Positions 1 through 6,895 of a DNA stretch of 64,000 bases are shown here, in pieces. Each line of letters begins with the position of its first letter. Positions within the stretch are counted from its first letter, which is position 1. The stretch lies in NCBI RefSeq assembly GCF_016793485.1, contig NZ_JAEULZ010000026.1, forward strand, positions 78,612-142,611, written 5' to 3'. Below the pieces are notes generated by a model that was not told the DNA's origin, ran no database searches, and worked only from the letters and a program-made list of their open reading frames with translations. The position numbers were made by a program, and so were the translations under genes. This DNA comes from Mesorhizobium sp. GTDB lineage: Bacteria; Pseudomonadota; Alphaproteobacteria; Rhizobiales; Rhizobiaceae.

Positions 1-647
1 ATGACATTGCCCTTCACCGTCGCCCGGACAACGGAAGCGAACTTCGCAAAAATCTGGTCGGTGTAGCGGTCCTTGAGGGGACTGGCCCTGCGTATCGCCA
101 GCGCCAGCGAATGGCCGTCGCGGAACAGGAAGAACAACAGGTACAGCATAACCCCGAGGCTGACGACGAACTGCAGCGTGCCCTGCCCTATGATGACAGC
201 GCGCGCCGCGAAGGCCTGCGCAAGTTGTCCCATGAAGGATGTCAGGCTGTTCTGAATTTCAGAAATATCGCCAAGCCCCAGAGACTGAAGACCATTGATC
301 ACAAATGTGGGGAGGGCATCATAAATTTGCTGCAGCATCGACGAGACATCGAACTCGCGCGTATCGATGCGTTGATAGAGGCTGGTTGCTTCCTGCGCCA
401 ATGAGGCGAGTACGATCGACCCCGGCAGGACCACAATGCAGATGCAGGCGAGCAGGCTGAGGCCGGCGGCGATGTTCGCGCCCCCGAACCTGTGGAACAG
501 CCGCCGGTATAAAGGCCGGAAAAGGATCGCGAGGATGGTCGCCCACAGAATCGCACCATAGTAAGGGAGCAGCAGCCAGACGAATGCTGCCGTCACGAGC
601 ACGACGGCCGTAACGAAGCTGACGCCTTCTATTGTCGTCTTGCGCAT
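1..647 (-). CDS. AI-2E family transporter, N-terminal part (runs off left edge)
   Basis: About 215 residues are visible from the ATG at 645-647; the gene continues beyond base 1. It begins with two hydrophobic segments (about residues 9-45, containing the YYGAILWA stretch) and a further pair around residues 55-85. A soluble, amphipathic region (about 90-150, with FVINGLQSLGLGD) follows, then more membrane helices ending in LYLLFFLFRDG. This alternation is typical of the AI-2E/YdiK/PerM permease family, inner-membrane exporters of mostly unknown substrate. Only the N-terminal half can be judged, so the substrate is unknown. It is transcribed away from the split tRNA gene. Confidence 0.8.
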   Translation of the reverse strand, partial: MRKTTIEGVSFVTAVVLVTAAFVWLLLPYYGAILWATILAILFRPLYRRLFHRFGGANIAAGLSLLACICIVVLPGSIVLASLAQEATSLYQRIDTREFDVSSMLQQIYDALPTFVINGLQSLGLGDISEIQNSLTSFMGQLAQAFAARAVIIGQGTLQFVVSLGVMLYLLFFLFRDGHSLALAIRRASPLKDRYTDQIFAKFASVVRATVKGNV

Positions 648-1109
648 AGAGGTGCTGTCCTTGTTCCGGCATGACCTCCCTGCCCGTCAGAGGTCGATGG
701 TGATCCTGTAGAAAAGTGTTTGGCCGGAACCTGAGCCTTCAGCGGCTTTACTCCCGGTTTCCCACCAGTTCGCATGCCTGTTGAGAAACTCAAAGGCGGT
801 CCTTACCCCGAAAATCCCTGATAACCATCGCCGTTCGGTCACGCGCTCAGACCTCGTCGCACGTAGACTAAAGCAATGTTTGGACGGAATGAACCGTTCT
901 GCCCGCAACAGACGATGCCGTATGTCGCGCATGTCCAGCTCGCCGGGAAAGAAGCCCCAGCTAATCCCGGCGAGCGACGCCCATGACGCGGACGATTACC
1001 GGCAGACAGCCGGCACGATTTTCGCAGCAAGATACATGCCGGAGAAAGTGCCTCGAAACGAGACACATCAACTCAATACACGAGATACGATCCCGAACAT
1101 GTCAGATAC
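648..1109. other. Intergenic region with nothing recognisable
   Basis: This 462-base stretch lies between the permease start and the 3' end of the disrupted tRNA-Leu. Short open frames exist on both strands, but none has a convincing ribosome-binding site, a recognisable motif, or a protein-like composition. It may hold the permease promoter and the 3' flank of the former tRNA gene. I see no repeat or strong hairpin in it. Confidence 0.5.
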
Positions 1110-1169
1110 TGGTGCGGATGAAGGGACTCGAACCCCCACGCCTTGCGGCACCGGAACCTAAATCCGGGG
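1110..1169 (-). pseudogene. 3' half of disrupted tRNA-Leu(UAG)
   Basis: Read on the minus strand, this contains the anticodon stem-loop core, the long variable arm, the T arm with loop TTCGAGT, the acceptor strand CATCCGC and an encoded ACCA end. The matching 5' part is 2.1 kb away at 3286-3326. The sequence on its 5' side (1170 onward) does not supply a replacement D arm or acceptor strand, so this copy cannot give a mature tRNA. Confidence 0.9.
1154..1169. repeat. Left attachment core (attL/attR), 16-bp direct repeat copy 1
   Basis: GAACCTAAATCCGGGG is identical to 3286-3301 and in the same orientation. On the minus strand it spans the 5' anticodon stem, the whole loop with anticodon UAG, and the start of the 3' stem. 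The anticodon loop is a common crossover site for tyrosine recombinases that use tRNA genes. Confidence 0.9.
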
Positions 1170-1215
1170 TGGAAATCCCGGAGGCTATATAATCCACGGG
1201 GTCGAGGAAAATTGT

Positions 1216-1266
1216 CGGGCACAGTTCAGGCACTCCTCGGGCACACCGGGCACAGTTTCGGGCACA
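1216..1266 (+). repeat. Four CGGGCACA repeats, putative integrase arm sites (left)
   Basis: CGGGCACA occurs at 1216, 1238, 1247 and 1259, all in the same orientation, 47-112 bp inside the left core. The same motif recurs at the other end of the element at 3104-3162. Short direct repeats flanking an attachment core on both sides are typical of arm-type binding sites of tyrosine recombinases. The function is inferred from layout only. Confidence 0.6.
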
Positions 1267-1269
1267 GTC

Positions 1270-1298
1270 TTGCCATAGCCGTTCGGGGCCGGTAGAGG
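1270..1298 (+). promoter_or_regulatory. Candidate promoter of the element-borne tRNA-Leu
   Basis: TTGCCA (1270-1275) and TAGAGG (1293-1298) are separated by 17 bp, with the -10-like box ending 10 bp before the tRNA 5' end at 1309. This is a tentative assignment based on spacing and position. Confidence 0.35.
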
Positions 1299-1308
1299 GG
1301 GCGGCGCT

Positions 1309-1393
1309 GCGGGCGTGGTGGAATTGGTAGACACAGCAGGTTTAGGTCCTGCCGCCGCAAGGTTTGGGGGTTCGAGTCCCTCCGCCCGCACCA
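1309..1393 (+). tRNA. tRNA-Leu (anticodon UAG), carried inside the element
   Basis: This is a complete class II tRNA. The acceptor stem GCGGGCG (1309-1315) pairs with CGCCCGC (1383-1389). The D arm contains GGTAGAC, the anticodon stem GCAGG/CCTGC encloses loop TTTAGGT with anticodon TAG at 1343-1345, and there is a long variable arm, T loop TTCGAGT and encoded CCA (1391-1393). It has the same anticodon as the tRNA gene disrupted by the element, but its anticodon stem differs, so it shares only about six bases (CCTAAA) with the attachment core. It therefore could supply leucine tRNA for CUA-type codons without being a target for the same recombinase. Confidence 0.95.
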
Positions 1394-1621
1394 TCACCAC
1401 CAGTGCTCCTGGTGTCCTCTAGAGTCATACCAGCGAGTGGATACGTTAACCGGGTCCTTGATTAGGCCCGAGCGTATCATGCCCTCGGCCTCCGCGACGG
1501 TGCGAAACGAACCGTGGCTGTCCCATAAGCGGAATGGCCACCGACCTGTCAGCGCCTTGAGGCGGAACCACACTTCGCCGTTCGGATGCCTCCACTCCTC
1601 GATCTTGTATTTGTCAGCCAT
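1394..1621 (-). CDS. Small hypothetical protein of the element (75 aa)
   Basis: The start chosen is the ATG at 1619-1621, preceded by GGAGAC about 10 nt upstream; its stop is immediately next to the 3' end of the element's tRNA. The product, beginning MADKYKIEEWRHPNGEVWF, is a soluble protein with many aromatic and charged residues, resembling a small single-domain phage protein that wraps a beta-rich core (WFRLKALTGRWPFRLWDSHG). A stop/start overlap (TGATG) with the 22-residue frame upstream suggests translational coupling. I do not recognise the family. It is the last gene of a cassette with 1621-1689 and 1686-2144. Confidence 0.6.
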   Translation of the reverse strand: MADKYKIEEWRHPNGEVWFRLKALTGRWPFRLWDSHGSFRTVAEAEGMIRSGLIKDPVNVSTRWYDSRGHQEHWW

Positions 1622-1689
1622 CAGTCGTTGTCTCCATAGAGGACTGGACGCACGCGGCGGCCGGTGTAGGCGAAGTCGTAGTCGTTCAT
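1621..1689 (-). CDS. Very small ORF of the element (22 aa)
   Basis: This frame encodes MNDYDFAYTGRRVRPVLYGD plus two residues. Support is contextual: GGAGGG lies just upstream of its ATG, its start overlaps the stop of the 152-residue gene (ATGA, 1686-1689), and its stop overlaps the next start (TGATG at 1619-1623). Such double overlaps are common in phage gene cassettes and suggest the three frames are translated together. No function can be assigned, and it could be a mere linker for translational coupling. Confidence 0.4.
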   Translation of the reverse strand: MNDYDFAYTGRRVRPVLYGDND

Positions 1690-2144
1690 GCCGAGACCCT
1701 CCGGCCAAACCCGAGGCTGTCCTTCCAGAACGAGAGCTTCAGGAATGGAGACCGGCGAGTGAACGTGTGGTCTGGTGTGAAGTGGTACCATTTGTACCCG
1801 AGCGCGGCGTAGTAGATCGAAATGATGTGCCGGCCGTTCTGCCCAAGGGCGTCGATAGCGGCCCAAGTCAGCGCCGTTCGCCGGCAATAGGACGCCTTAT
1901 GGTACGTCGCTAGGCGGTGGAAAGCCGTCGCAAGGTCGGTGTTGTGGTGCTTGGTCTTGTTCAGCAGATCGCGGGCTCGCTGGTACTCCAGCAACCGCGC
2001 TCCGGCGTCGAAGGAGAAGAACATCGTTGCCGCTACAGCGACGAATGATCCCGGAGCCGGGACTATAGAGGCAACAGAAGTGGACAGCAAAGCGAGGACG
2101 AGCGGCGGCCAGACAGCCGCGATGGAGTGGAGGATCGACTTCAT
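1686..2144 (-). CDS. Hypothetical membrane-anchored phage protein (152 aa)
   Basis: The N-terminus has one or two hydrophobic segments (about residues 8-48, rich in Leu, Val, Ala and Ser). A cytoplasmic or periplasmic soluble part of about 100 residues follows, with YHKASYCRRTALTWAAIDALG and a YKWYHFTPD motif near the C-terminus. This composition is seen in uncharacterised proteins of rhizobial phages, but I cannot name a family. GAAAGG lies upstream of the ATG at 2142-2144. A rho-independent terminator just upstream (2163-2192) separates it from the 53-residue gene, so it probably has its own promoter or relies on readthrough. Confidence 0.6.
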   Translation of the reverse strand: MKSILHSIAAVWPPLVLALLSTSVASIVPAPGSFVAVAATMFFSFDAGARLLEYQRARDLLNKTKHHNTDLATAFHRLATYHKASYCRRTALTWAAIDALGQNGRHIISIYYAALGYKWYHFTPDHTFTRRSPFLKLSFWKDSLGFGRRVSA

Positions 2145-2162
2145 GGCTTACCTTTCGAGGAC

Positions 2163-2192
2163 AAAGAAAAGCCCCCGGTGGAAGCCGAGGGC
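2163..2192 (-). terminator. Rho-independent terminator (minus strand)
   Basis: The stem GCCCCCGGT/GCCGAGGGC at 2171-2192 has one mismatch and a GGAA (plus strand) tetraloop. On the minus strand it is followed by TTTTCTTTG (2170-2162). It would end transcripts coming from the polymerase remnant and the 53-residue gene. Confidence 0.7.
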
Positions 2193-2221
2193 GCTGACGA
2201 AACAGAGAGGTTGATGGGAGG

Positions 2222-2383
2222 CTAAGACGCCTGACGCTTAGCCGAGGACATGCGGTAGTGAATGAAGCCGGCAGCGAGGCCGATGAGCGCACCGATCAGG
2301 TCCGCTCCTGGCACCCACATGGCGGTCAGGCCGAAGATGGACACGACGCCGACGACAATGCCTATGACAATGGAAACGAGCAT
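2222..2383 (-). CDS. Small membrane protein of the element (53 aa)
   Basis: The frame is opened by an ATG at 2381-2383 with GGAGA seven bases upstream. The product starts MLVSIVIGIVVGVVSIFGL and contains a second hydrophobic stretch (LIGALIGLAAGFIHY) before a basic tail (RMSSAKRQAS). Two short transmembrane helices with a basic C-terminus are compatible with a small holin-like or other phage membrane protein. The family is not identifiable from sequence alone. It lies 36 bp downstream of the truncated polymerase gene, so both may sit in one transcript that ends at the terminator at 2163-2192. Confidence 0.6.
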   Translation of the reverse strand: MLVSIVIGIVVGVVSIFGLTAMWVPGADLIGALIGLAAGFIHYRMSSAKRQAS

Positions 2384-2418
2384 GGAAGGTCTCCGATGAG
2401 GAAACCCTTCCTATAACC

Positions 2419-3089
2419 CTACGCGACTCGTTCGAGCAAGGCCACCACGTCGTCCAGCGCTGCGTCGGCTTCAGGAACTTGACGGTCTTCTTGCCGTGCT
2501 TCTCGGAGCCGAACTCCAGCAGGCCGGTGGCCGAGACCATCAGCTCAATCAGCTTCAGGCCGGTCAGGAGCTTGTCGCGGTCAGACCAAGGGTCCCAATC
2601 GTCGCCGTGCTCGCGGAGCATGTGCATGAGGACGCGACGGCGGTGTTCGAGGTGCCCGGTGTTGTCGTCAAGGAAGCCGAGGGTGCCCTTGAAGTTCTGG
2701 GCGTTGTCCACAGCGAACTTCGCCAGACGCTTCTCCAGCTCGACAGTGCTGCCGATCCGGACGGCGAGTCGGGTGAGGTTCTGGTCCTGCGCATAGCCGT
2801 CGAGGATGAACTTGGCCGTGATGAAGGCCAGGGCCTCGGCCTCCAGCCCGCTGAAGAACCGCACGGCGCTGTGTCGCCTCCCTGCCCGGCCAGAGCCGGC
2901 CTCGTCCCGGAACTTCAGGATCGCGGCTGCGGTCGGGTCGATCACAACATCGAGAACGGTCTGCATGGATTTCGAGCGAGTCGCCTCGCCGGCCTCACGG
3001 GCTTCGAGGGCGTTCCTGCGAAATCGGTCTACACCGAGCGAAGCCATACGGGCCTCCAGATCGGCTTGAATTTCCATCATGTCTTGCAC
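2419..3089 (-). pseudogene. T7-type single-subunit RNA polymerase, N-terminal domain remnant
   Basis: Translated from the GTG at 3087-3089 (AAGGAG five bases upstream), about 210 residues match the N-terminal domain of autographivirus RNA polymerases. The order seen is the QADLEARMASLGVDRFRR opening helix, a GRAGRRH segment, EAEALAFITAKFILDG (T7: KPEAVAYITIKTTLACL), then WDPWSDRDKLLTGLKLIELM followed by TGLLEF (T7: WHKEDSIHVGVRCIEMLI then TGMVSL). Near 2458 the frame breaks: reading on with a -1 shift restores the plausible tail DAALDDVVALLERVA and a stop at 2419-2421, as if one CGAC repeat had been lost. The palm, fingers and catalytic aspartates, roughly 550 residues, are absent, so no polymerase can be made. 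An unshifted frame runs on to 2238 without homology. Confidence 0.8.
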
Positions 3090-3103
3090 GGTTTCTCCTT
3101 GGT

Positions 3104-3162
3104 TGGGCACAAGTTCGGGCACACATGGCCTCTCGGTCACGTTTCGTTCTTTTTCGGGCACA
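3104..3162 (+). repeat. Three (C/T)GGGCACA repeats, putative integrase arm sites (right)
   Basis: The copies are at 3104-3111 (TGGGCACA), 3116-3123 and 3155-3162 (both CGGGCACA), in the same orientation as the four copies at the left end and 124-182 bp inside the right core. They sit directly upstream of the polymerase remnant. Confidence 0.6.
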
Positions 3163-3200
3163 CAATCCAGTCCCGGAACCGGGAACACTAATCCGAGCCG

Positions 3201-3222
3201 AAAAACGCCCCAGTTACGGGGC
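3201..3222 (-). terminator. Rho-independent terminator inside the right end of the element
   Basis: GCCCC (3207-3211) pairs with GGGGC (3218-3222) around a six-base loop. On the minus strand it is followed by GTTTTT (3206-3201). It would stop transcripts that enter from the tRNA-Leu promoter, about 100 bases after the truncated tRNA. Confidence 0.65.
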
Positions 3223-3257
3223 TCAAGTCCTTGTTGGGTAAGGGATAGCGCTGTCTA

Positions 3258-3273
3258 GTCCCGCATCCGGGAC
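3258..3273. repeat. Perfect inverted repeat next to the right core
   Basis: GTCCCG-CATC-CGGGAC lies 12 bp inside the right attachment core. It sits where a T arm would fall if the element supplied a new 3' half for the tRNA, but the loop is not a T loop and no matching acceptor strand follows. Confidence 0.5.
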
Positions 3274-3285
3274 AATTCCGTAGCA

Positions 3286-3301
3286 GAACCTAAATCCGGG
3301 G
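3286..3301. repeat. Right attachment core, 16-bp direct repeat copy 2
   Basis: GAACCTAAATCCGGGG is identical to 1154-1169. It joins the tRNA 5' half (3302-3326) to the interior of the element. Confidence 0.9.
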
Positions 3302-3326
3302 CGTCTACCAGTTCCGCCACATCCGC
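3286..3326 (-). pseudogene. 5' half of disrupted tRNA-Leu(UAG)
   Basis: On the minus strand it starts with acceptor strand GCGGATG (3326-3320), complementary to CATCCGC in the 3' half at 1114-1120. The D arm (GGTAGACGC) and the anticodon core follow. The sequence continuing into the element does not form a convincing variable arm, T loop or acceptor strand, so the gene is not restored at this end. Confidence 0.9.
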
Positions 3327-3679
3327 GCCCGCCCGCCAATCCCACGTTGGCCATCATTCTGTCAATCTCAAGGATGACAGCTTGTTCCCGTCTGTGTGAC
3401 GCGAAGAAGTGTTGAAAATCCGCGGCGCGTATGACAAAAGGCGTGTCAATTGTGACGGGAGTGAAAGATCCGCTGCTTGCTGGCTCGGTAAGATAGTTCA
3501 GAAACAACGACTTATCGACAGAAGCACGTGTCCAGCGCCAAGGAATCCGGGCCGTAAGCGGCCGGTTGACTGTGCGTTCTGCCCTCATGACGAACTAGCC
3601 ACTCCGGCACGAATACACCGGCAGGCTGAACGGCGCGGCCGTACAGAATGCGCGGATTCGAGAAACGAAGGTTTTGACG
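3327..3679. other. Intergenic region between tRNA-Leu remnant and tig
   Basis: This 353-base region should hold the leftward promoter of the former tRNA gene and the rightward promoter of tig. On the minus strand, TTGACA at 3365-3360 lies about 34 bp upstream of the tRNA 5' end and could be its -35 box, although a good -10 is not evident. On the plus strand, TTGACT near 3567 could serve tig. No gene is seen. Confidence 0.4.
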
Positions 3680-5152
3680 ATGCAGGTTACCGAGACGCTG
3701 AATTCCGGCCTCAAGCGCGAAATAAAGGTCACCGTTCCGGCCGGCGACATGGAAGCCCGGCTCGTGACGCGGCTTAACGAGATCAAGGACAAGGCCCGCA
3801 TCAACGGCTTCCGTCCGGGCAAAGTGCCGCTGCAGCACCTGCGCAAGGTCTACGGCAAGTCCTTCATGGCCGAGGTTGTGAACGACATCCTGTCGAACCA
3901 GACCCGCCGCATCATTGCCGACCGGGGTGAAAAGGCTGCCATGCAGCCCGAGGTCACGATGACAGAGGACGAGAAGGAAGCAGAGAAAATCCTGGCCGGC
4001 AACGCCGACTTCGAGTTCCAGCTTGCCTACGAGATCATCCCGGCCATCGAGATCAAGGCTGTATCGGACATCGCCGTCACCCGTTCTGTGTATGACGTGC
4101 CGGAGAGCGAGATAGACGACCAGGTAAAGCGCGTCGCCGAATCGACTCGCAGTTACGAAACGAAGGCCGGCAAGGCCGCGGAGGGCGACCGGGTCTCGAT
4201 CGACTATGTCGGCAAGATCGACGGCGTGGCCTTCGATGGCGGCGCGGGCACCGACCAGCCGCTCGTGCTCGGCTCCAAGGAGTTCATCCCCGGTTTCGAG
4301 GACCAGCTTGTCGGCACCAAGGCCGGCGACGAAAAGCAGATCACCGTGACTTTCCCGGAGAACTACCAGGCACCGCATCTGGCCGGCAAGGAAGCCACCT
4401 TCGACGTCACCGTCAAGGAAGTCTCGGCCCCCGGCCCGTTTGAGATCAACGACGAAACGGCCAAGGCGCTCGGCCTGGAATCGCTCGACCGCCTGCGCGA
4501 GATCGTGAAGGGCCAGCTCGAAAGCCAGTTCGGCTCGATCACGCGCCAGAAGGTCAAGCGCCAGTTGCTCGACCAGCTTGATAGCGCCTACCAGTTCGAG
4601 GCCCCCTCCAAGCTTGTGGAAGCCGAATTCACCAACATCTGGAACCAGGTGAACCGCGACCTGCAGGCGGCCGGCCGCACCTTCGCGGACGAGGAAACCA
4701 CAGAGGACGAGGCTCGCGAGGAGTATACCAAGCTCGCCGAGCGTCGTGTCCGCCTCGGCCTGGTGCTGGCGGAGATCGGCGAGAAGGCTGGCGTGACGGT
4801 CGCCGACGAGGAGGTCCAGCGAGCCCTATTCGAAACCATCCGCCGCTTCCCGGCCGACCAGCAGCAGCAGGCGTTCGAATTCTACCGCAATACGCCCGAC
4901 GCGATCACCTCGATCCGCGCACCGCTGTTCGAGGAAAAAGTGATCGACCACCTGCTTGGCCAGGTTTCGGTGACCGACAAGAAGGTCTCGAAGGAAGAAC
5001 TGACCGCCGAGGACGAGGCGGAAGAAACCGCCAAGCCGGCCAAGAAGGCCACAGCCAAGAAGGCGAAGAAGGCCGACGATGCGGCTTCGGAAGAAACTGC
5101 CGAAGCGCCGAAGAAGAAGGCGACCAAGAAGAAGGCCGCCGACGCCGAGTAA
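3680..5152 (+). CDS. tig: Trigger factor (ribosome-associated chaperone, peptidyl-prolyl isomerase)
   Basis: The protein has 490 residues in the usual three-domain order. The N-terminal ribosome-binding domain carries the signature region [16 protein letters not shown] (about residues 41-56). The FKBP-type domain lies around 155-240 ([20 protein letters not shown] and [15 protein letters not shown]), followed by the C-terminal helical chaperone arms. The last 40 residues are a Lys/Ala/Glu-rich tail ([13 protein letters not shown]), a frequent rhizobial extension. ATG 3680 is preferred over TTG 3674 because GAAGG lies seven bases before it. It is preceded by the tRNA-Leu locus and converges on radC. 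Confidence 0.95.
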
Positions 5153-5172
5153 TCGAAGCGTCTCGCTTGCAG

Positions 5173-5201
5173 AAACAGGGCCGCCTAGCGCGGCCCTGTT
5201 T
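5173..5201. terminator. Bidirectional terminator shared by tig and radC
   Basis: AAACAGGGCCGC (5173-5184) pairs perfectly with GCGGCCCTGTTT (5190-5201) around the loop CTAGC. T-rich sequence follows on the plus strand, and the hairpin lies between convergent genes. The radC stop codon (TAG, 5187-5185) is in the loop, so one arm of the hairpin is coding sequence. Confidence 0.8.
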
Positions 5202-6024
5202 CGTTTCGGATTATCCCTTTGCCGCTCATACTGTAATAGCCGTTCTTGCCGATGATTATGTGATCGTGGACGGCCACGCCGAGCCGTTTGCCGGCATCGA
5301 TGATTTCATTGGTCATCGCGATGTCGGCCCGCGACGGCGTCGGATCACCTGACGGATGATTGTGGACAAGGATGATTGCAGTCGACGACAGTTCGAGCGC
5401 TCGCCTGACAACCTCACGCGGATAGGCTGGCGTGTGATCGACCGTACCGACATGCTGCACCTCGTCGGCGATCAGCGCATTCTTCTTGTTGAGGAAGAGT
5501 ATCCGGAACTGTTCCCGCTCCTCGAAGGCCATTGCGGCACGACAATACTCCAGCACCCTGTCCATCAACGACATCACGTCACGGTTCATTATTTGGCCAC
5601 GGATCATGCGGCCGGCGGCTTCTGCGACGATCTTGAGTTCGGTCGCGGATGCAGCTCCCATCCCCTCGACCTCCACAAGCAAATGAGGTGGCGCCCCAAG
5701 AACCTCGGGAAATGACCCAAACCGCTCCAATAGTGCCTTGGCTGTTGGCTTTGTATCGCCCTGGGGGATTGCCCTGTAGAGCAGCAACTCCAGCACCTCA
5801 TAATCGTCCATCTTGTCGCCCGAGCGAGAGAAGCGCTTTCGTAGACGCTTCCGATGGCCGTGATAATGAGGTTTTGCTTTGACAGGCTTGGCTTTGCCAG
5901 ACGTCTGTTTGGTAGATTTCGCGGTCGGGAAAGCTTGTTCCGCAGTAATTTCAGGCTTCAATTGCGGTTGCGGAACAGGGCGCTCCGCAAAGAAACCGCG
6001 CTCGTCGCTGTCCTCTTCTCCCAT
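5185..6024 (-). CDS. radC: RadC family protein (JAB/MPN+ domain)
   Basis: The protein has 279 residues. After a variable, Lys/Gln-rich N-terminus (about 60 residues) comes a helix-hairpin-helix-like part ([19 protein letters not shown]). A JAB1/MPN+ metallo-domain follows, with the [14 protein letters not shown] motif (H-x-H-x7-D) and upstream glutamate in [15 protein letters not shown]. Despite the historic name, RadC proteins have no proven DNA-repair role. ATG 6024 is chosen because GGGGGA precedes it; an in-frame TTG at 6045 is the alternative. It follows map on the same strand with a short gap, as in other rhizobia, so the two are probably co-transcribed. Confidence 0.88.
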
Positions 6025-6067
6025 CCAACGTCCCCCGACAGGCAAATACGCCCGACCGGGGAGAATA

Positions 6068-6895
6068 TTACGAAGGCAGGCCGGGACGGTCGAGCCCTTT
6101 CGGCGACAGTGTGAAAATCTCGCAGCCGGTCGCCGTCACGCCGACGGCGTGTTCGTATTGGGCCGAAAGGGACCGGTCCCGCGTGACGGCAGTCCAGCCG
6201 TCCGAGAGCACCTTCACATGCGGACGGCCGAGATTGATCATCGGCTCGATGGTGAAGATCATCCCTTCGCGCATCTCCACGCCTTCGCCGACGCTGCCGT
6301 AGTGGAGAATGTTAGGCGCATCGTGGAAAAGCTGCCCGACTCCGTGGCCGCAAAAGTCGCGCACTACCGAGCAGCGCTCGGCTTCCGCGTAAGACTGGAT
6401 CGCCGCGCCAATCGCGCCGGTCCGCGCGCCGGGCTTTACGGCTGCGATGCCGCGCATCAGGCATTCGTGGGTGACTTCCAGCAGGCGTTCGGCCGCCCGC
6501 TTTATCTGGCCGACGGGGTACATGCGACTGGAATCGCCGTGCCATCCGTCCAGAATGTAGGTTACGTCGATGTTGACGATGTCCCCTTCCCGCAGCGGCT
6601 TGTCATCAGGAATGCCATGGCAGACGACGTGGTTGATCGAGGTGCAGGTGGACTTGGTGTAACCGCGATAGTTGAGCGTGGCCGGCATCGCGCCGTGATC
6701 CATGCCGAATTCGAAGACGAAGCGGTCGATGGCGTTCGTCGTCATGCCCGGCGCGACCATCGAAGCCAGTTCGTCGAGGCAGGCGGCGGTGATGGCGCTC
6801 GCCTTTCGCATGCCCTCGAAGCCCTCGCGCCCGTAGAGCCGTATCTGGCCGGTGTTGCGAAGCGGCGCCGTATCGGCATCAAGATATGTAACCAT
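6068..6895 (-). CDS. map: Methionine aminopeptidase, type I
   Basis: The 275-residue protein removes the initiator methionine from nascent proteins in the cytosol. All five metal ligands are visible in order: Asp in NIDVTYI, Asp in WHGDSSRM, His in FCGHGVGQ, Glu in FTIEPMI and Glu in QYEHAVGV. The substrate-side histidine in HVVCHGIPD is also present. The ATG at 6893-6895 is the natural start; the open frame extends upstream without homology. It lies upstream of radC on the same strand and diverges from nudK. Confidence 0.95.

Follow-up and report, generated by a model that had tools for sequence, protein, structure and literature searches.

tRNA-dependent lysogeny, in which a phage integrates into a host tRNA gene that it does not rebuild and supplies a tRNA of its own, was defined for actinobacteriophages by Guerrero-Bustamante and Hatfull (PMC10865867). 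In their account, phages of this type have attachment cores of 8-17 bp (their Table 2), mycobacteriophages provide genetic proof, and the extent of the strategy outside actinobacteriophages is called open, with Lj965 cited. For a few alphaproteobacteria the cited accounts offer annotation only (PMC11476347, PMC6811365). In S. meliloti AK21 and RU11/001, Lo5R7ANS-like prophages are annotated as inactivating tRNA-Leu(UAG), with the prophages' own tRNA replacing it (PMC11476347), a case that the authors of PMC12429752 regard as tRNA-dependent lysogeny. Similarly, the Fonsibacter phage uv-Fonsiphage-EPL and the pelagiphages HTVC011P and HTVC025P are described as able to integrate in tRNA-Leu (TAG); in SAR11 the phage's own tRNA-Leu replaces the lost function and trigger factor flanks the prophage (PMC6811365). 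A pelagiphage relative with a 46-bp tRNA-Leu match is reported as being of the canonical type (PMC3861242), so not all related phages take the replacement route.

By these accounts the mechanism and even the target gene are already published, and the strategy that a first-pass annotation of the DNA studied here had proposed is not new (PMC10865867, PMC11476347, PMC6811365). We found no report in the open-licence literature of a decayed remnant that keeps only the replacement tRNA, an absence that is weak evidence. What is new here is apparently the end state, with the integrase and most of the phage gone and the host apparently still using the phage tRNA.

In the window, by which we mean the whole 64-kb stretch of Mesorhizobium DNA analysed, a repeat search identified a 16-bp direct repeat, GAACCTAAATCCGGGG, at positions 1154-1169 (core recomputed) and 3286-3301. 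The two copies lie 2132 bp apart and bound an insert of 2.13 kb. Sequence reading places the insert within the anticodon stem-loop of a host tRNA-Leu(UAG) gene on the reverse strand: the 3' half with one core copy occupies 1110-1169 (attL side), and the 5' half with the other, which also matches a Leu(UAG) pattern, occupies 3286-3326 (attR side). Rejoining the host flanks around one repeat copy yields an intact 85-nt tRNA-Leu(tag), and the site is therefore a real split gene. ARAGORN called neither junction as a tRNA in the window, and the host gene is rebuilt at neither. The locus thus shows two marks of tRNA-dependent lysogeny, namely an attB inside a host tRNA gene with a short common core and attL and attR junctions that restore no tRNA. 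The site is flanked on the host side by a forward-strand ORF at 3680-5152 (the program's start is 3674), which we take from its sequence to be the trigger factor gene, tig; its homologues found by tblastn lie beside the tRNA in relatives.

Octamer clustering further identified repeats of CGGGCACA on the forward strand near both cores. Four copies lie at 1216-1266, and on the attR side copies at 3116 and 3155 share the interval 3105-3162 with a GGGCAC at 3105. Six of the seven copies in the window sit 47-163 bp from the two cores. The total alone is not extreme (seven against 3.2 expected, reached in 3 of 100 shuffles), and it is this clustering, rather than the count, that argues for arm-like sites. 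The same octamer, as TGTGCCCG, flanks the core on both sides in the phage contigs L081 (from IMG/VR) and L198. We infer that these octamers are putative arm-type sites of an integrase.

Within the insert, ARAGORN called the only tRNA of the window, a forward-strand tRNA-Leu at 1309-1393 with anticodon TAG (named as the same gene in L039). It is intact and scores 53 bits against the Rfam tRNA model, where the cut-off is 29. The claim that it shares its UAG anticodon with the gene the insertion destroys is borne out, and the anticodon stems quoted earlier, GCAGG/CCTGC for the internal tRNA and CCGGA/TCCGG for the target, are correct. The figure of about six common bases around the anticodon needs revision: seven consecutive bases (TTTAGGT) are common to both, and in register 11 of the 16 core positions agree and five differ. 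The 12-bp core GGATTTAGGTTC is present exactly in one of five related phage tRNAs compared (that of contig L201) and absent from four; a mismatch between phage tRNA and core is therefore not a general rule, and the immunity of the replacement tRNA to the same integrase, which the first-pass annotation proposed, is conjectural here and would not hold for all such phages.

The comparison with phage and host tRNAs that the first-pass annotation had proposed points to a phage origin. The internal tRNA is 92.9% identical to the tRNA of L198, with the same figure for a Mesorhizobium prophage tRNA, 81.4% identical to the tRNA-Leu(UAG) of phage Lo5R7ANS, and only 78.8% identical to the window's own broken host gene (67 of 85 positions of the rejoined tRNA). 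Six positions differ between the L198 and internal tRNAs, and four of these are two paired changes in the acceptor stem, as would be expected if the internal tRNA stayed functional. Its single-strand fold is not unusually stable (z -1.0), a measure that says little for any tRNA.

The remainder of the insert is made of phage pieces. A reverse-strand ORF at 2238-3188 matches phrog_414, a phage RNA polymerase family, over profile positions 2-220 of 816 (E 1.4e-32), and we assign its stretch 2457-3086 to the N-terminal part (~210 codons) of a T7-like RNA polymerase. Among phages it matches Rhizobium phage Pasto best (50%), and the RNA polymerase of L081 is 73% identical. When the whole 829-aa Pasto RNA polymerase was compared with the strain's own genome, residues 4-217 alone matched, at this locus only; the C-terminal three quarters gave no detectable match anywhere in the assembly. 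The PF00940 profile also gave no match over this genome, though controls gave none either. The single-subunit RNA polymerase characteristic of T7-like phages (Autographiviridae) is thus represented by its N-terminal part only.

Alignment with L198 shows that the polymerase fragment is fused, at an approximate deletion junction at 2450-2460, to the end of a tyrosine integrase gene on the same strand. Its last 12 sense codons plus stop remain at 2419-2457 and match the C-terminus of the L198 integrase (LDDVVALLERVA-stop, 12 residues); the catalytic Tyr presumably lay before this retained end. Past the junction the insert continues with a stretch from downstream of the integrase, a 152-aa ORF, the tRNA (corresponding to L198 9611-9695) and the core. 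The first of these holds a 53-aa reverse-strand ORF at 2222-2383 with weak family matches only, in a region that matches L198 7669-7803, just downstream of the L198 integrase, by tblastx. The 152-aa ORF at 1686-2144, also on the reverse strand, has no family match of weight in profile searches; it has a homologue in L081 (50% identity over 153 aligned columns, E 2e-50), and L198 encodes a 154-aa homologue. With 2.13 kb and a truncated RNA polymerase, the insert is no complete T7-like phage genome. Since its integrase is cut to the last 12 sense codons plus stop, we class it as the remnant of a tRNA-dependent lysogen rather than a working one; the element no longer works.

The same arrangement recurs in intact phages. 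L198 carries, in order, an integrase (Pfam PF00589, E 1.8e-20), a tRNA-Leu(UAG), an attP core and an RNA polymerase. We ran ARAGORN on 133 loci, comprising Pasto, Lo5R7ANS and loci derived from searches (one of which, L211, is Lo5R7ANS again). A tRNA-Leu(UAG) lies just upstream of the polymerase and on the opposite strand in L081, L198 and L201, as in the window, and L085 and Pasto carry a tRNA-Leu(UAA) in the same position. Lo5R7ANS (KM199771, first 14 kb) is likewise T7-like with integrase, tRNA-Leu(UAG) and polymerase; close to its tRNA a putative RtcB (RNA ligase) is annotated (L117 9397-10050), and a link to tRNA repair would be a guess.

By regular expression, a broken tRNA-Leu 5' half stands shortly before the polymerase in nine of the 133 loci: L118 (Mesorhizobium), L123 (Litchfieldella), L160 (a MAG of Opitutia) and six from Pelagibacteraceae. 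In the Mesorhizobium genome G410, tig (82% identity to that of the window over 122 aa) adjoins a broken host 5' half, which runs into an RNA polymerase sharing 81% identity with that of L081; a second contig holds the host 3' half plus a phage tRNA, and no further Leu(UAG) was found in G410 by pattern. This genome carries the same phage type at the same site. In two Pelagibacteraceae genomes (G413 and G417) a single contig carries both ends, separated by about 37 kb, together with a phage tRNA, the host 3' half and tig; the published pelagiphage arrangement is thus present there. In the other four, an intact tRNA-Leu(UAG) is on another contig in G419, G420 and G414, and G418 has none. The cores measure 16 bp in the window, 12 in Mesorhizobium, 13 in Litchfieldella, and 9 in each of G413 and G417.

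Several further cases were seen in passing. In Litchfieldella, a gammaproteobacterium (L123, L248), a T7-like prophage splits a tRNA-Leu(UAG) at a 13-bp core and has its own tRNA-Leu(UAG); the far end shows an intact tRNA-Leu(UAG) plus the host 3' half, and no tig lies within the two stretches examined. The Opitutia locus L160 has two tandem broken tRNA-Leu 5' halves, at 1471 and 2563, before a T7-like RNA polymerase, with anticodon CAA by reading. A 14-mer attP scan of viral contigs matched at least 120 stretches, most of them presumably by chance; among the 80 loci listed, one (L329) holds a tRNA-Leu. This distant T7-like contig repeats the order at 1888-6094, with an integrase-like ORF, a tRNA-Leu(UAG), an attP-like core and an RNA-polymerase-like ORF; both ORFs were named by reading alone. 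A scan of viral contigs with the Pasto integrase confirmed nothing.

We next consider relatives with an uninterrupted gene. Five were fetched from 40 searched, three of the same genus (G001-G003) and two of the same family (G011, G018). In all five, an uninterrupted tRNA-Leu(UAG) adjoins trigger factor, located by tblastn, and is divergent from it. Identity of these tRNAs to the rejoined host gene is 95.3-98.8%, against 76.5-79.1% to the internal tRNA. Moreover, the rejoined window flanks align from the tRNA end into tig in all five (as separate pieces in G018), and the far side of the tRNA aligns in two: without a break in G003, in G002 as a separate piece. The identities and the linkage to tig together indicate that the broken gene is ancestral and the internal tRNA foreign. 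The concern raised with the original claim, that the internal tRNA might be ancestral sequence shared with insert-free relatives, finds no support in these five genomes, which have the host-type gene only.

More widely, linkage of the tRNA to tig is common in the family and not universal, several of 30 hand-picked genomes having the two far apart. A pattern for the junction, which fits this attP type only, was run over 394 genomes of the family, sampled evenly from a larger group, and matched one, the strain's own; in that sample, then, the site is rarely occupied by this phage type. One genome, G194, has a displaced tRNA-Leu(UAG) 3' half beside tig (L298 1360-1415, L285) and its sole intact pattern match about 28 kb away, with an unusual variable arm, as if an island had rebuilt the tRNA-Leu in chimeric form.

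We also considered a second domestication in genus g97 and rejected it, reading g97 as a possible donor lineage. A chromosomal tRNA-Leu(UAG) has the phage-type anticodon stem in six of the seven g97 genomes examined (G099 has another stem), and in all seven the tRNA is separated from tig by 92 kb or more, or is on a different contig. At the tig loci of these seven genomes no broken host half was found (G099 gave one chance-like 13-nt match). When the surroundings of the tRNA in the six genomes were compared by tblastx with the insert and the first 14 kb of L198, the tRNA itself matched, and two of the six added four short weak stretches of 16-38 aa (23-33 bits). Beyond g97, 23 more genomes were surveyed, with broken halves checked only in the nine that have no tRNA adjoining the tig locus.

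We then asked how many copies of tRNA-Leu(UAG) the strain has. Its genome gave 44 Rfam tRNA matches, all named by ARAGORN, among which the tRNA-Leu set comprises UAA, CAA, CAG, GAG and the internal UAG. A Leu(UAG) D-arm/anticodon pattern run over the assembly found two places, the internal tRNA and the broken 5' half (a reversed control also gave two chance matches), and a 26-mer from the broken gene, allowing up to three mismatches, found one place, the split site. The 44 tRNAs found in this assembly lack tRNA-Trp, Ser(GCU), Ala(UGC) and Ile(GAU). A search with a tRNA-Trp pattern, uncalibrated on another genome, found nothing either. The assembly has 52 contigs and a stated completeness of 100, despite no tRNA-Trp being found, and it probably has gaps. 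As tRNA-Trp and the others were not found in the 52 contigs, a second tRNA-Leu(UAG) could lie in a gap. The assertion that the element carries the only UAG-Leu tRNA thus stands in part: no other copy, and no other intact host gene of this kind, turned up in this probably gapped assembly, where a second could still be hidden.

Evidence from other genomes bears on the same point. A strict pattern for intact Leu(UAG) matches 173 of the 394 family genomes, with no row examined showing more than one match; the other 221 presumably miss it through differing sequence. CUA codons are in use, with 36 among the 14,777 codons of 32 long ORFs in the window, one of them in tig (ORFs picked greedily by length, gene status unchecked). 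CUA is presumably read here by a UAG anticodon only. Overall, it is probable that the strain has no tRNA-Leu(UAG) other than the phage one.

The split gene, the same-anticodon tRNA inside it, the phage origin and the fused polymerase and integrase pieces can be read from the DNA itself. From these we reconstruct the following history. A temperate T7-like phage of the Autographiviridae type would have used its tyrosine integrase to enter tRNA-Leu(UAG), beside tig, at a short core within the gene's anticodon stem-loop. The host gene was destroyed, with neither junction restoring it, and the tRNA-Leu(UAG) brought by the phage would have kept the lysogens alive. A later deletion would have fused codon ~210 of the RNA polymerase gene to the end of the integrase gene, taking nearly all of the phage, integrase included, while the tRNA and the two attachment junctions were left in place; how many deletions there were, and in what order, is presumptive. 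Excision by the prophage's own integrase is no longer possible. The internal tRNA would be expressed, charged and essential, and its loss, if it is the sole copy, would be expected to be lethal. We give a probability of about 0.88 to this reading, in which the insert is a T7-like prophage remnant that arose by tRNA-dependent lysogeny and was later deleted, with the phage tRNA probably serving as the sole tRNA-Leu(UAG). A stronger version, in which the phage tRNA has become the permanent and sole tRNA-Leu(UAG), an essential-gene replacement made irreversible by integrase loss and held in place by essentiality, we favour with clearly less assurance.

Other readings account for parts of this evidence. 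If a second intact host tRNA-Leu(UAG) lay in an assembly gap, the insertion would be neutral and the internal tRNA a bystander. The missing tRNA-Trp in a 52-contig assembly lends this some credit; against it stand the stated completeness of 100, the single strict match per genome in every row examined among the 173 matching family genomes, and the orthology of the broken gene, linked to tig, with that of five relatives, and we judge it unlikely. Somewhat less probable again is a small satellite that a related phage would mobilise in trans with its integrase: such relatives exist, and the insert has kept both cores, the arm-like repeats and the tRNA, but it is built like the product of a deletion that fused RNA polymerase to an integrase tail, and the junction pattern occurs in no other of the 394 family genomes.

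A false join in a draft of 52 contigs could also disguise a full prophage as a 2.1-kb insert. Positions 1-4000 of the window contain no N, however, and for the C-terminal three quarters of the RNA polymerase of Pasto the assembly gave no detectable match; we consider such an error slightly less credible than the satellite. Finally, tRNA-Leu genes resemble one another, so that the internal tRNA might be duplicated ancestral host sequence among coincidental phage pieces; its 92.9% identity to the L198 tRNA, against 78.8% to the strain's own gene, and its place and orientation, which are those found in the phage, leave this reading scarcely tenable. We therefore retain the deleted tRNA-dependent prophage as the preferred explanation.

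The locus is of interest because a phage gene has apparently taken the place of an essential host tRNA gene permanently. It shows what may remain of a dead tRNA-dependent prophage, from which nearly everything can go except the tRNA, and suggests a way for phages to replace host tRNA genes. If this is true, it would give bacteria one route by which a tRNA gene can be exchanged for a foreign one, and would explain why some prophage scraps cannot be purged. One testable expectation is that prophage remnants at broken tRNA genes should retain the cognate tRNA. The layout of integrase, tRNA-Leu and RNA polymerase recurs in the T7-like phages Pasto, Lo5R7ANS, L198 and L329, the last two also having an attP-like core that separates tRNA and polymerase, so such remnants can be searched for.

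Among known systems, canonical tRNA-targeting prophages and islands share with the window's inferred ancestor a tyrosine integrase and an attB in a tRNA gene. They carry the missing part of the tRNA and rebuild the gene, as described for S. meliloti phiLM21-like elements (PMC12429752), whereas the window has a core of just 16 bp and no tRNA is called at either junction. The actinobacteriophages Fionnbharth, LeBron and Gaia resemble the window in their short core, unrebuilt host tRNA and same-isotype phage tRNA; they are described as intact phages of Actinobacteria, some of them genetically tested (PMC10865867), whereas the window holds a T7-like prophage remnant without integrase, in a genome with alphaproteobacterial sequenced relatives and matches. 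The uv-Fonsiphage-EPL and pelagiphage type shares the T7-like character, the target and the tig flank with the window (PMC6811365), and differs in comprising full prophages of a distant lineage, with a 9-bp core in G413 and G417. Rhizobium phage Pasto (MT708545) is T7-like with the order tyrosine integrase, tRNA-Leu, RNA polymerase, as in L198, but its tRNA is tRNA-Leu(UAA). Mesorhizobium phage vB_MloP_Lo5R7ANS is, like L198, a T7-like phage with an integrase and a tRNA-Leu(UAG). Prophages of its type belong to another phage lineage and are described as keeping their integrase (PMC11476347), whereas the insert in the window has lost it.
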